Shown here: positions 1-39,954 of the stretch, one piece after another
How the letters are laid out: every line of letters begins with the position of its first letter
Numbering within the stretch: the stretch's first letter is position 1
Virus record (IMG/VR): IMGVR_UViG_3300022658_000326
Location: 1-39,954 of that record
Direction: 5' to 3' (one strand)
Length of the DNA stretch: 39,954 bases
From: a virus
Notes under the pieces: generated by a model
What the model saw: the letters and a program-made list of their open reading frames with translations, nothing else
Told to the model about the DNA's origin: nothing
Database searches by the model: none
Translations under genes and position numbers: made by a program

Positions 1-393
1 TCAGATCGTGTGCGTACCTTCAACGCCACGGCGCCTACGTTCGATGGTTCGCTGCTGCAGCCAATGCATGGCCTCCTCGATGTGAGTTAAGGCGCAGGCA
101 TTTGCTTTGCAGGCAAAAGGGCCTTTTTGAAAGCTGCGCAAACGGTCTGCGACCACTGCAAGCAGTGCTTCGTGCGTGACACCGTTTACGCCAACTTCAG
201 CGATTGGCCCATTCTGAAAAAGAATCAGCGTTGTGTTGGCGTCTTGGTCATCAGGATCTGACGGGTTTGTCGTGTTGTCGAAACCAGATATCAGGTAGGC
301 GTGATTAGCACCGCCACTGCCTGCATCGTCCATAACGCGAATGGTCAATGTGTCGTTCGCCGGGTTTACTTTGTGATCTTCAAGGGTGCGCAT
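1..393 (-). CDS. tad1: Tad1-like anti-Thoeris/anti-CBASS signal sponge
   Basis: The 130-residue protein resembles the phage Tad1 family (Acb2/Tad1 hairpin domain). Known members bind and sequester cyclic nucleotide signals made by Thoeris TIR proteins (gcADPR), and some also bind CBASS cyclic oligonucleotides. The sequence shows the family pattern: an N-terminal beta-rich part with NPAND (residues 10-14) and GSGGANHAY (25-33), then FQNGPIAEVGVNG (59-71), then a helical hairpin with FQKGPFACKANACALTHIEEA (88-108) and WLQQRT, ending in RGVEGTH (122-128). Phe93, Asn98 and the Arg-rich C-terminus are the likely ligand-contact area by analogy. It is the last gene seen of the early-left operon, where phages often keep counter-defence genes. 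The family call comes from recalled family sequences, not a search. Ligand choice cannot be read from sequence alone. Confidence 0.82.
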   Translation of the reverse strand: MRTLEDHKVNPANDTLTIRVMDDAGSGGANHAYLISGFDNTTNPSDPDDQDANTTLILFQNGPIAEVGVNGVTHEALLAVVADRLRSFQKGPFACKANACALTHIEEAMHWLQQRTIERRRRGVEGTHTI

Positions 394-426: not shown

Positions 427-606
427 TCAGGTCAGTGCGCTTTCGCTCCACCAGCTCTCCACTGCACGGCCGTCCGCCGACTTGTAGCGAACCCAGTACG
501 TGTTTTCGGAATGCTCGTACTCGGCGCGGCCGATCACGGTGCCTTGTTCGCCACTAACGGCGATCGTCACTTGTTGCTTCAGTTCAAATTTGAATTTCTC
601 GGGCAT
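427..606 (-). CDS. Small conserved phage protein, SH3-like
   Basis: This 59-residue ORF was found by direct translation. It starts at the ATG at 604-606 and stops with TGA at 427-429. The protein begins MPEKFKFELKQQVTIAVSGE and contains GTVIGRAEY followed by a Tyr/Trp-rich end (TYWVRYKSADGRAVESWW). The pattern of short strands, with a hydrophobic beta hairpin and a KOW-like GTVIGR turn, suggests a small SH3-like barrel. Similar short proteins occur in many tailed phages with no known function. It lies in the early-left operon between the Tad1-like gene and an 82-residue hypothetical gene, with a 33-base gap before the first and a 52-base gap after the second. Function unknown. Confidence 0.7.
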   Translation of the reverse strand: MPEKFKFELKQQVTIAVSGEQGTVIGRAEYEHSENTYWVRYKSADGRAVESWWSESALT

Positions 607-2733: not shown

Positions 2734-3239
2734 GCTGCAAGCCTTTCAAGGTCGTGCACCAGGACGGCGTTGTGGCCCTGGGCGATGGTGTGTTTTTGGG
2801 CCGCGTCGATCGCGGAAAGAAACTCGGCGCGGCCGAGCTGGCGAACTTGATACGCATGCAGATCCAGAAAGGTCTGCAGGGCGTCCAGCTCCTGGTAGTA
2901 CAAGGTGACACGCACCCAGCGTCCACCGCCCGTGCGTAGGGCGCGGTCGTAGATGTCCTGCAGCGCCTGCTCGGCTGTGCGCAGGTGCCCTTCCAGGCCG
3001 CGCACAATGCCCTGGCGCTCGATCGCCAGGGCCACCGTGACGCTGCCTGCAGCGATTGACCATTGATGCTCGGTGGCCACGCCTTCGCGCAGCGCCTGGA
3101 TCGCTGTGCGCAACATGTCCAGCACCTCGGCACGATCAGCGGCTGCAGGCTTGGCGGCATAGTGCAGCGCTAGGGCCATGGTGTGCGCAGTGACCGGCCG
3201 GGGCCGGTAGGCCTTGCGAGGCTTCTTGTTGCGGCTCAT
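2730..3239 (-). CDS. Hypothetical early phage protein, helical
   Basis: A 169-residue protein with a very basic N-terminus (MSRNKKPRKAYRPRPV) and a helical body rich in Ala, Leu and Gln. The body suggests two repeats of long helices, with EHQWSIAAGSVTVALAIERQGIVRG in the middle and QLGRAEFLSAIDAAQ near the end. Similar proteins with the KKxRKxYRPRPV start occur next to ParB-like genes in Burkholderiales phages, as far as I recall. The stop overlaps the start of the HD-domain gene by four bases and its start overlaps the ParB stop by four bases, so the three genes are probably translated together. Function unknown. Confidence 0.7.
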   Translation of the reverse strand: MSRNKKPRKAYRPRPVTAHTMALALHYAAKPAAADRAEVLDMLRTAIQALREGVATEHQWSIAAGSVTVALAIERQGIVRGLEGHLRTAEQALQDIYDRALRTGGGRWVRVTLYYQELDALQTFLDLHAYQVRQLGRAEFLSAIDAAQKHTIAQGHNAVLVHDLERLAA

Positions 3240-5437
3240 GCAGCCACCAGCACTTTCCGGGCACCGCGCTCATCGCACGCGCTGACCTTGCCTGCCTGCT
3301 GCAACTGCTCCATCAGCTCCATCGCCTTGGTGGTGCCTACCTTCAGCTCGGTCTTGAGCAGCCGCACATTGGCCTTCTGTTCACGCACCACGATGTCAAT
3401 GGCCGACTGCAGCAATGGATCTGCGACTGTGGGAGGCGGCTCTTGCGGGACTGCGAACTCGGCCTTGTTGCGCCCGTTTTCTACCACCAGGACGTGGAGC
3501 CACCTGGGCATCAGCCCGCGCCCTGTCCACGTCTCGCCGTTGGGGCCACGGTAGCGGATCTCAGGCGCACCGGCTGGCTTAGCGGGCGACGCCACTGCGC
3601 CCTTGGGCGCAGCAGACGCCCCCTCAAGGCCTTGCATCGCGGCAGCGATGCCTTGTGTTGCTTCCTCGGCGCTCAGCTTGGGCTTCGGCGCGCGCAGCCT
3701 CGGTGTCGCGGTGTCCTGCTGTCCTCCCGCACCCACCTCGGGCCGCGCAGCGGAGCCGGTCGCGACTTTTGCCTTTTCGGTCTTGACCTTGGGAAAATGC
3801 TTGGCCAGAGCTTCGGATTGAATGTCCTGCAGGGTGGACTTGAGCGCGGCACCGTGCACGATGCCAGACACCAGGTGCATGCCTTCGTTGGAGACGCGGA
3901 CGCCGTTGTCATAGCTGAAGTCGTTGGCGCTGCTGTCATGCACCATGATCATCAGCATGTGGATGGCGTCGGGCTGGTCGGTGGTCTTGATATGGTCAAG
4001 CAGGGCGCTGTGCGAGCCCACCTTGTCCAGGCCCAGCAGCTTGCTCACCTTAGCCGACTGGTCGGTGCTCAAACTGTGCGCTGCCTTGAGCGCCACATAC
4101 CGGTGCACCTCGGTATTGAAGGCTGTGACGATGTCGTCAGACCGCTTCATCAATTCCCAGGTGTGGGCCACCAGCTGGTCGCGCCATTCCTGTTCATACG
4201 CGGCTTTGGCCTTCGCTTCGGCCTTGGCCTTCTTTTCGTCCACCAGCTTCTGCACTTCCTTGGAGACCTTGGCATTGCTGGCTGGCGTGGTGGTCGCCTC
4301 CACGGCGGCTTTTTCGGTTGCCTTGAGCAATTTGAGTGCAATTTCATTGGGCAGGCATTCCAGGAACTCGCCCGGCTTGCGGCCGCTCTCAATCAGCACC
4401 GGTTTGATGCCCTCGGCTTTCATCAACGGGCCGATCAGTTTGCGCAGTGGCTGGTCGGTGGGGCTGTCTTCGGAGCTGTCCAGGCGGCGGTAACCCACTA
4501 CCTTGTCCGACCATGATCCATGGCCCTCGGGTTTGAGTTCCAGCGCGGCCTTGCCCGCAATGACGGTCTGCCCCTTGGCCTTGGCCGATGCAACCTGCAG
4601 AGCACGATGGGCCTCTTCTTTCTTGTGGAAGCAAGGCGGGTCGGTGCAAACGTCTGCACCCTTCACGTCACTGAATAAATCGGGGTTGTGGCCGGTGCGC
4701 TTGGTGCAGGTCTTGCAGCTGCCCGCATCTGGCACCAGATCCACCGCCGTGATCTGGAAGCGGGCATCGCTCAGCTTGAGCATGTAGTTGCTCTGGACAT
4801 GCTCTGCAGCCTGGCGGTACGTCATGGGCTCGCGGCCCGAGCTGCTGTAGTAGCCATGCCCGGACACAATTTCCTTCATCGCCTTAATCTGCAGCTTGTG
4901 ATCCGGGATGCGAGCTACCAGCAATGCGCGGCTGGCGTCAATGGTGCGATCGCGCAGGCTGGTGCGGGCCTCGCTGCACAGGTCCAGCAGCTTGAGGCGA
5001 CCGTACACGTAGCTGCGGCTCTTGTTGATCCGCTCGCCCACCTGGTCGGCATTCAGACTGCTGTGCTGCATCAAGGCCTCATAGCCTTCCGCTTCTTCCA
5101 GCTCGGTCAGATCGTCCCGCTGCAGGTTTTCCACCAGTTGCACTTCCAGTGCCTGCTCATCGGTCAACGCGCGGACCATCGCGGGAATGGTGGCCACGCC
5201 TGCCTGCTGGCTGGCACGGTAGCGGCGCTCGCCGCACACCAGCTCGAACTGCACCTTGCGGTCGGTGTCAGCCACGCGGCTGCCAGGCAGCGGGCGCACG
5301 GTGATCGGGGTATCGATGCCCCGGCGCTTGATGTCCTCTGCCAGCTCAGTCAGCTTGGCGGGGTTGAAGTTCTTGCGCGGGTTGGTCAGGCTGGGCGTGA
5401 TTAGCGACAGCTCGATGTTGGCAAATTCGGTGCTCAT
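3236..5437 (-). CDS. Large ParB-like protein with zinc, H-NS-like and FtsK-gamma-like parts
   Basis: A 733-residue DNA-binding protein. Residues 1-110 are a ParB/Spo0J N-terminal (CTPase-type) domain with GERRYRAS at 69-76 and ENLQRDDLTELEEAEGY at 103-119. Residues 120-190 are the ParB helix-turn-helix part (LNADQVGERINKSRSYVYGRLKLL). Cys241, Cys244, Cys264 and Cys269 form a probable zinc site (CKTC ... CTDPPC). A Lys/Ala-rich stretch at about 390-420 is a likely coiled coil. Residues about 628-648 (YRGPNGETWTGRGLMPRWL) match the AT-hook-like DNA-binding motif of H-NS proteins, and residues 673-733 (DPLLQSAIDIVV ... VGTTKAMELMEQLQQAGKV) look like the FtsK gamma winged helix. It may organise or segregate phage DNA or regulate genes; no ParA partner is visible. 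Confidence 0.82.
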   Translation of the reverse strand: MSTEFANIELSLITPSLTNPRKNFNPAKLTELAEDIKRRGIDTPITVRPLPGSRVADTDRKVQFELVCGERRYRASQQAGVATIPAMVRALTDEQALEVQLVENLQRDDLTELEEAEGYEALMQHSSLNADQVGERINKSRSYVYGRLKLLDLCSEARTSLRDRTIDASRALLVARIPDHKLQIKAMKEIVSGHGYYSSSGREPMTYRQAAEHVQSNYMLKLSDARFQITAVDLVPDAGSCKTCTKRTGHNPDLFSDVKGADVCTDPPCFHKKEEAHRALQVASAKAKGQTVIAGKAALELKPEGHGSWSDKVVGYRRLDSSEDSPTDQPLRKLIGPLMKAEGIKPVLIESGRKPGEFLECLPNEIALKLLKATEKAAVEATTTPASNAKVSKEVQKLVDEKKAKAEAKAKAAYEQEWRDQLVAHTWELMKRSDDIVTAFNTEVHRYVALKAAHSLSTDQSAKVSKLLGLDKVGSHSALLDHIKTTDQPDAIHMLMIMVHDSSANDFSYDNGVRVSNEGMHLVSGIVHGAALKSTLQDIQSEALAKHFPKVKTEKAKVATGSAARPEVGAGGQQDTATPRLRAPKPKLSAEEATQGIAAAMQGLEGASAAPKGAVASPAKPAGAPEIRYRGPNGETWTGRGLMPRWLHVLVVENGRNKAEFAVPQEPPPTVADPLLQSAIDIVVREQKANVRLLKTELKVGTTKAMELMEQLQQAGKVSACDERGARKVLVAA

Positions 5438-36910: not shown

Positions 36911-36945
36911 AGCCCTCCATCCCTCACGGGGTGGGGGGCTTTTTT
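36911..36945 (+). terminator. Terminator at the phage right end, overlapping the integrase end
   Basis: AGCCCTCCATCCC (36911-36923) pairs with GGGGTGGGGGGCT (36928-36940), 13 pairs with two G-U, around a loop of four bases (36924-36927), followed by six T (36940-36945). It terminates rightward transcription from the methylase and small-protein genes. The 3' half lies in the last codons of the minus-strand integrase gene, so the hairpin also shapes the end of that transcript. Confidence 0.72.
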
Positions 36946-38570
36946 GCGTTTGTGGGCTGCTCAAGGCTCTCCGACATGATCAGCTGGCCGTCGCGCCCGA
37001 TCCGCAGCAGCCTGGCTGTGCCGCCCTTGGCCAGCAGCATCATGTCCATAGGGCCCTTGTCTTCTGTCGGCCGCACACCACGCTGATAGATCACGATCCG
37101 CTCGAACGTGTCGGCCACCAGCTGGCGGGTCTGCAGGCGTGCGTCGTAGTCTTGGGCTTCCACGCCGTCCACCAGGCGCTTCCATTCCTCATCGGTGCCC
37201 TTGATGTCAGTGCGGGCCGTTGCGGCCAGATCGCGCTCTGCCGCCTGGACAACCTCCTGCAGCCGCTGCTGCTCGGCTTCCAGCTCACGGGCTCGCTTGG
37301 CGAAGGTGAGAGGCACGCCGTCCTCGCTGCTGGCCAGCATGGCATCGGTCAGGCGCTCCAACTTGGTAGCCACGTCTGCCAGCTGCTGCCTGGCGTGCGT
37401 CAGAGCTGCCAGCGGGCCTGCAGAGCGATCCGCGCCGTACAGCGCCTGCAGGTTGACGATGTCCGAGCAGTAGGTCATCAGAGCGCGCTCAAAGGGGGCG
37501 ACCGACACCGAGCCGCTGACCTGGCACCCGCCGTGCGAGTAGCTGGTGCAGTGCAGACGTCTGTGCCCGTCCTGGATGCGCCCCTGTGCATCCCGATTGC
37601 GGGTGCCGATGTTTTGCCCCACCATGGCGCGCCCGCAATATCCACAGACTGTGATGCCCAAGCCGGTCAGGATGTGTGGTACCGGTCCCTTAGCCTTGCG
37701 CCGCCCACGGCCGTTGTTGGCCAGCTGCAGGCCGTCCCATTCGGCCGTGGTCAGCAGAGCAGGGTAGTAGCCCGGCAGCTGGTAGCTTTCAGCTCCGAGG
37801 GTCAGCTCCTTTTCCCCGATCAGTGCCCGTTGCTTGACCAGGCGGTAGATCTGCAGCGCCTGTGGACCGCGCCCGGTGAGCGATAAATTCTGCTCGGTCA
37901 GGCGCTCGATGATCTTGGTGGCACCGTAGCCCATCAAATACAGGCGCAGGCCTTCATGCACGGCCGCCACCCGCTCGGGTATTTCCTCCCACTTGCCGTC
38001 CACCAGGCGCAGCCACACCGGGTCTTTGCCGTTGCGGATGAGGCCACGGTAGGTGCCAGCGATCCAGCCCTCGCACTGTCGCCGGATGCTGGCCAGCACC
38101 CGTTTGCTCTTCGTGTCGCTCTCTTCGTGGGCGCGGATCATGACCAGGAGCGAATACACCAGATCCATCGGGTTGGCCTTGAGCCGCTCCCGGCTGTATT
38201 CCTTGCCATCGCTGGCGGTGACCACTGCGATGCCAGCATTTACAATCTGGGCCAATTGGGCCTGCGCCTGGATCGGCTCAGCCCGTGAGAGGCGGTCGAG
38301 GCCTTCCACCACCAGAACCGAGCCCTGTGGTATCCGGCCCTCTTCGACCGCTGCCAGAAAGACGCCCAGCGCACCGGATTTCACGTGTCGCTGGTGATAG
38401 GCCGACAAGCCCTCATCCCGCATCGATAGTGATTCGTCCAGGAGTAGGCCATGTTCGGCAGCCCATTTGGCAGCGTATGCCGCCTGGCGTTCGCTGCTGT
38501 GGCCCGTGGCCTGGCGCGGATCACTGAACCGCGTATAGCTGTAAACAAGACCTGTCAAACTACACCCCAT
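36924..38570 (-). CDS. Large serine recombinase (integrase)
   Basis: A 548-residue protein if started at the ATG at 38568-38570. A longer frame to 38651 exists but those 27 residues are antisense to rimO. The resolvase domain begins [22 protein letters not shown] with the likely nucleophile Ser16, and has [17 protein letters not shown] recombinase domain follows (about 160-300), then a zinc ribbon with [10 protein letters not shown] and [10 protein letters not shown], and a coiled coil (about 430-510). Such enzymes join attP and attB with short cores and do not need host factors for integration. The start has no good Shine-Dalgarno site. Confidence 0.9.
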
Positions 38571-38615
38571 GAACGAAATACAAGAAAAAATCCCGCGTAT
38601 AGGTATGGTATCCCT
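38568..38615. other. Probable right attachment junction (attR) at the rimO 5' end
   Basis: The integrase start (CAT, 38568-38570) and the rimO start (ATG, 38569-38571) overlap in CATG. The first conserved rimO residues begin near residue 9 ([13 protein letters not shown]), so the crossover should lie in the variable first nine codons or just upstream. Serine recombinase cores are short, so the exact core cannot be located without the left end. No matching repeat was found elsewhere in this window. Confidence 0.45.
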
Positions 38616-39954
38616 AGGTTGTCCCAAGGCGCTGACCGACTCTGAACTCATATTGACCCAGCTTAGTGCGGAGGGTTACCAGACATCCAAGACCTTTCAG
38701 GGGGCGGATTTGGTCATCGTCAACACTTGCGGGTTTATTGACGATGCGGTGAAGGAGAGTCTGGACACCATCGGCGAGGCGCTTGCTGAAAACGGGCGCG
38801 TGATTGTGACTGGGTGTCTTGGTGCGAAAACCACTGAGGGTGGCGACAACATGGTTCGTCAGATGCATCCCAAGGTGTTGGCCGTTACAGGGCCGCATGC
38901 AACCCAGGAAGTAATGGATGCGGTACACCTGAATTTGCCCAAGCCGCATGATCCCTTTTTAGACTTGGTGCCGCAATCATTCGGTGTGGCGGGTGTCAAA
39001 CTTACGCCGCGTCATTACGCGTATTTGAAAATCAGCGAAGGTTGTAACCACCGTTGCACGTTCTGCATTATTCCCAGCATGCGCGGGGATTTGGTGTCGC
39101 GCCCCATTGGCGATGTGCTGACCGAAGCGCGGGCTTTGTTTGAAGGTGGCGTCAAAGAATTGTTGGTCATCAGCCAGGATACCTCGGCTTATGGCGTGGA
39201 TGTGAAATACCGCACCGGCTTCTGGGATGGCAAACCGGTCAAGACGCGGATGCTGGAGCTGGTGCAGACCCTGGGCGAAATTGCGGAGCCTTATGGTGCC
39301 TGGGTTCGGTTGCATTACGTATACCCCTATCCGACTGTGGATGAAATAGTTCCCTTGATGGCAACAGGTCGGGTACTGCCTTACCTGGATGTTCCTTTGC
39401 AGCACAGTCACCCTGATGTGCTGCGACGCATGAAGCGCCCTGCCAGTGGTGAAAAAAATCTGGAGCGCTTGCAAAAGTGGCGTGAGGCCTGCCCTGAATT
39501 GGTGGTGCGGAGCACCTTTATCGCGGGCTTCCCCGGAGAGACTGAAGAAGAGTTCGAGCACTTGCTGGATTTTGTGCGAGAGGCTCAGATCGACCGCGCC
39601 GGTTGCTTTGCATACAGCGCAGTGAATGGTGCTACCGCCAATGATTTGCCGGGAATGTTGCCGTTGGAAGTTCGCGAGGAGCGTCGCGCGCGATTCATGC
39701 AAGTTGCCGAGGAGGTTTCTGCTGCACGCTTGCAGCGTAGAGTGGGCTCCGTCATGCAGGTCCTGGTGGATTCGGCCCCGGCCTTGGGACGCAAAGGTGG
39801 TGTCGGTCGTAGCTACGCAGATGCACCTGAGATCGACGGCGTAGTGCGCTTGCTTCCGCCAGAAAAAATCAGCAAGACACTCAAGGTGGGAGAGTTCACC
39901 AAGGCGCGCATTGTGAGTGCTCAAGGTCACGATCTGGTGGCGCAGCCCATTTAA
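38569..39954 (+). CDS. rimO: Ribosomal protein S12 methylthiotransferase RimO (host gene)
   Basis: A 461-residue radical-SAM enzyme. It adds a methylthio group to an aspartate of ribosomal protein S12. The N-terminal cluster-binding domain has Cys18 (SLGCPKA), Cys54 (NTCGF) and Cys83 (TGCLGAK). The radical-SAM motif CNHRCTFC gives Cys159, Cys163 and Cys166. The C-terminal TRAM domain is complete ([29 protein letters not shown] ... GHDLVAQPI). The frame is intact and the length normal, so prophage insertion has not destroyed the enzyme. Its native promoter is replaced by phage DNA, and no ribosome binding site is seen before the ATG at 38569, so expression in the lysogen may be changed. Confidence 0.94.

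Follow-up and report, generated by a model that had tools for sequence, protein, structure and literature searches.

We report that the first open reading frame (ORF) of a 39,954-nucleotide stretch of viral DNA (IMG/VR record IMGVR_UViG_3300022658_000326, positions 1 to 39,954; hereafter the window) encodes, with a probability of about 93%, a phage Tad1 protein, a signal sponge directed against the activation of ThsA or CBASS effectors. The protein is a clear addition to a known family, and nothing here indicates a new mechanism; it leaves the mechanistic understanding of Tad1 unchanged and adds a Tad1 to a temperate phage of what is probably a Comamonadaceae-type bacterium. A large, well-conserved Tad1 clade (about 80 loci, recovered with one query) is mostly missed by curated family models, and counts of anti-Thoeris and anti-CBASS sponges made with such models would run low in environmental proteobacterial phages.

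The ORF lies on the minus strand at window positions 1 to 393 and is complete (130 amino acids), with an ATG at position 393 and a TGA that ends at base 1, the stop codon forming the exact first bases of the contig. Its features, with the evidence for each, were as follows.

1 to 393, minus strand: tad1, a 130-residue Tad1-type signal sponge by family (translation, PDB search, profile, AlphaFold2, Foldseek); beta domain at about residues 1 to 60, helical hairpin at residues 74 to 122
181 to 219, minus strand: FQNGPIAEVGVNG block, residues 59 to 71, the end of a beta-strand and the loop preceding helix 1 (translation, alignment, AlphaFold2)
88 to 132, minus strand: FQKGPFACKANACAL block, residues 88 to 102 (translation, PDB-search alignment, 65-sequence alignment)
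10 to 30, minus strand: RGVEGTH, the Tad1 C-terminal tail, residues 122 to 128 (translation; conserved in the 65-sequence alignment)

All four motif blocks quoted in the earlier note are encoded in this ORF, NPAND occupying residues 10 to 14 of the translation. That note had taken the blocks as hallmarks of the Acb2/Tad1 hairpin family; they are all present, but NPAND and the GSGGANH block sit in the N-terminal beta domain, present in Tad1 but not in Acb2, and not in the hairpin.

Homology to experimentally solved Tad1 proteins extended over the full domain, both for the single sequence and for a profile. Single-sequence searches of the PDB (phmmer) matched phiKZ gp184 (E = 3.8e-21), CbTad1 (5.5e-20), and CmTad1 (2.9e-19), with nothing else significant. 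A profile search against the Tad1 and Acb2 families, which the earlier note had proposed, was made against the PDB with 65 aligned sequences and returned Tad1 chains (CmTad1, 6.8e-31; CbTad1, 2.2e-29) and zero Acb2. The closest phage family was PHROG 2428 (E = 2.4e-35), which covers nearly the full length of the protein, belongs to the same family, and carries no Tad1 annotation. A chance match is excluded because of the E values for CbTad1 and PHROG 2428 and the 77 viral and 9 genome loci that encode relatives. As a side observation, PHROG 2428, 23843, and 22140, all listed with function unknown, matched the protein strongly and can be read as Tad1 families.

Curated models performed poorly on this abundant proteobacterial clade, whether from Pfam, NCBIfam, or PADLOC. 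The sole Pfam match was PF24729 (Acb2/Tad1 hairpin) at 20.4 bits (E = 5.9e-4), below its curated gathering cut-off of 27 bits, and NCBIfam and PADLOC models gave no match to the protein; the identification therefore does not rely on the Pfam model. PF24729 is insensitive to this clade, matching only 27 of the 65 aligned sequences at E ≤ 0.001.

AlphaFold2 (with alignment, monomer) predicted the structure with a mean pLDDT of 94.2 and a pTM of 0.82, placing strands at residues 17 to 20, 32 to 36, and 54 to 59, followed by helices at residues 74 to 90 and 96 to 122. The fold prediction suggested in the earlier note thus returned for the monomer a Tad1 fold, an N-terminal antiparallel beta domain followed by two long C-terminal helices. 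Foldseek against the PDB (E ≤ 0.001) gave 20 matches, every one a Tad1 chain (query TM-score, 0.69 to 0.78), comprising CbTad1 and CmTad1, apo or bound to gcADPR, cA3, or cAAG; the best match after these had an E value of 0.64. Superposition of the monomer model on Tad1 structures left an rmsd of at least 4.4; the interdomain angle may differ in the monomer model, or shaping by an oligomer may be missing.

Acb2 has a short N-terminal helix and two long helices and lacks the N-terminal beta domain of Tad1. That the window protein is instead of the Acb2 type draws on its only Pfam match being the shared hairpin model, but this reading is barely credible, given a Tad1 beta domain predicted with high confidence and significant fold and sequence matches that are all to Tad1 or phiKZ gp184, with Acb2 absent from both. 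The assignment to the Acb2/Tad1 family is therefore borne out by the sequence and profile matches, the predicted fold, and the conserved pocket, and is narrowed to Tad1.

CbTad1 (Clostridium botulinum prophage; PDB 7UAV, 7UAW, 8SMD, 8KBE to 8KBH) shares the full-length domain order and fold of the window protein (query TM-score up to 0.78; 35 to 38% identity in the structural alignment), as well as the aligned pocket residues F, N, R, and R, but carries FQKGARKEEKSQHG where the window Tad1 carries FQNGPIAEVGVNG, and its inter-strand loop differs. CmTad1 (PDB 8KBB to 8KBD) is alike in fold at about 29% identity (structural alignment) and also has the GPI.E.G.NGV block and a C-terminal EGT, whereas its N-terminal beta domain differs in sequence. 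A Bacillus phage SPG24 protein annotated as Tad1 is 51% identical across the C-terminal 84 residues of the window Tad1 and also terminates in RGVEGTH, its N-terminal domain lying outside the BLAST alignment. The jumbo phage proteins phiKZ gp184 and PhiPA3 gp217 (the latter 40% identical over 101 residues) show homology that spans the beta domain and the hairpin, and have longer N-terminal extensions than the window Tad1.

The gcADPR pocket of CbTad1, which we take to be lined by F82, N92, R109, and R113, corresponds in the PDB-search and profile alignments to F88, N98, R115, and R119 of the window protein, a numbering that fits on the assumption that the PDB chain carries one additional residue at its N terminus; F88 and N98 lie within the FQKGPFACKANACAL block. 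These four residues were conserved in 65, 65, 64, and 65 of the 65 aligned sequences, respectively. Residues F59, Q60, R84, F88, N98, R119, and G126 were invariant in the same alignment, and the translations of relatives varied greatly in length between the second strand and FQNGP. Across 17 comparisons with relatives, pS was 0.72 to 0.95 and pN 0.14 to 0.27. Because synonymous sites are near saturation while pN stays this low, the protein sequence is maintained by purifying selection.

The intact ORF, the conserved pocket residues, and purifying selection all speak indirectly for the view in the earlier note that this copy is active. It is very unlikely that the protein keeps the Tad1 fold but no longer acts as a sponge, for instance because it has decayed or serves as a structural protein. 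Virion association does occur within the family, as the N-terminally longer homologue phiKZ gp184 is reported to be injected into the host along with the virion (PMC13282480), but the window tad1 is not part of the head and tail module, is intact and under purifying selection, and its product keeps all of the pocket residues.

The window includes terminase, portal, major head, and tape-measure genes, and megablast of both window halves against known phages gave no match. Further features that locate tad1 in the element were as follows.

427 to 606, minus strand: 59-residue gene of unknown function in the leftward row, immediately upstream of tad1 (PHROG 8618 match)
36924 to 38570, minus strand: serine-recombinase-like integrase at the prophage end opposite tad1 (read from translation)
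38569 to 39954, plus strand: host rimO with a prophage-supplied 5' end, showing where the prophage ends on the right and indicating the host family (alignment to genome G227)

From about 6.8 kb, window genes are read leftward, several of them overlapping by a 4-base ATGA, and tad1 is the last gene of this row, 33 bases after the preceding gene, with a GAGAG ribosome-binding-like sequence in the gap. The leftward row, the ATGA overlaps, and the 33-base gap make the placement of tad1 at the far end of an early-left operon, as the earlier note had it, plausible. Promoter and terminator scans gave no excess over shuffled sequence, and Rfam and tRNA scans gave no matches. Two other proteins encoded in this part of the window (both on the minus strand) were observed in passing: a 733-residue protein (3236 to 5437) that combines a ParB N-terminal domain, a ParB helix-turn-helix, an H-NS C-terminal domain, and an FtsK gamma domain, an unusual combination, and a 336-residue protein (1723 to 2733) whose weak WDGH-domain match precedes an HD-type 5'-deoxynucleotidase region.

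The integrase-like ORF and rimO abut, and a shared CATG holds both of their start codons. Against the uninterrupted rimO locus of G227, nucleotide homology began at window position 38613, within rimO, and the first codons of the gene, including a replacement start codon, come from the prophage. Judged by this comparison, the window is a prophage that entered a Comamonadaceae rimO at its 5' end; in the excised circle, tad1 would lie near the integrase, provided that the left attachment site is not far from the window edge. In a Lampropedia genome (G004), rimO appears split between two contigs near codons 18 to 27 (C9:1-1332, L091, and C43:4086-4154), which may point to another element that used this insertion site in rimO.

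The window rimO shares 96% identity with the G227 gene and 80 to 91% with those of many genomes in the family of Lampropedia G004, which makes a Comamonadaceae-type betaproteobacterium the most likely host. The genus of G227, the closest rimO match, was taken as the likely host genus. Within it, the SMODS (CD-NTase) model matched 8 of 103 genomes, 7 of them above the cut-off, and the ThsA STALD domain matched 2 of 103; PADLOC models called ThsA in both STALD genomes, with an adjacent ThsB in one, and also called a CBASS cyclase in the genome with the best SMODS match. By these domain models, Thoeris and CBASS are both present at low frequency in the likely host genus, which is compatible with the inference in the earlier note of a host lineage exposed to Thoeris or CBASS. 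Searches of the genus found no relative of the window Tad1 in the 103 genomes and no PF24729 match in 100 genomes, although such silent searches show little.

Phage Tad1 proteins bind and sequester cyclic ADP-ribose (cADPR) isomers and CBASS nucleotides, which they leave undegraded (PMC12043709, PMC10022894). Because the window protein belongs to this family, it most likely does the same. Upon infection or induction of the temperate phage, tad1 would be expressed as part of the leftward row of early genes, its protomers would, by homology, assemble into dimers and, as three dimers, into hexamers, and nucleotide immune signals would be held in pockets between protomers. ThsA or CBASS effectors would then stay off, and the cell would not abort the infection.

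It is possible, though we think it doubtful, that the protein mainly blocks CBASS cyclic di- and trinucleotides and not the cADPR isomers of Thoeris. Tad1 binds the CBASS nucleotides as well as gcADPR (PMC12043709), and in the likely host genus CD-NTases occur in more genomes (8 of 103) than ThsA does (2 of 103), but the SMODS and STALD models behind these counts miss some CBASS and Thoeris systems, all of the gcADPR pocket residues are kept, and one protein serves both functions, so that a CBASS role and a Thoeris role are not exclusive. A ligand preference of this proteobacterial clade unlike that of studied Tad1 proteins, tuned by the variable-length inter-strand loop (residues about 37 to 53), is unlikely. 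We retain a Tad1 sponge for nucleotide immune signals as the preferred reading.

Relatives of the window Tad1 were encoded at the 77 viral and 9 genome loci, with some contigs common to both collections; nearly all were 48 to 79% identical, and most aligned over nearly the full length. Further homologues occurred in Pseudomonas jumbo phages, Agrobacterium phages, and Bacillus phages. A conserved partner gene beside tad1 was considered and rejected, as the two largest neighbour clusters were frames antisense to tad1, an artefact. No constant neighbour family was found across the loci of relatives, the other clusters spanning only 5 to 9 loci at scattered positions, and window genes other than tad1 recurred near tad1 in at most two relatives. 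The gene therefore moves among unrelated phage backgrounds, as expected of exchangeable cargo.
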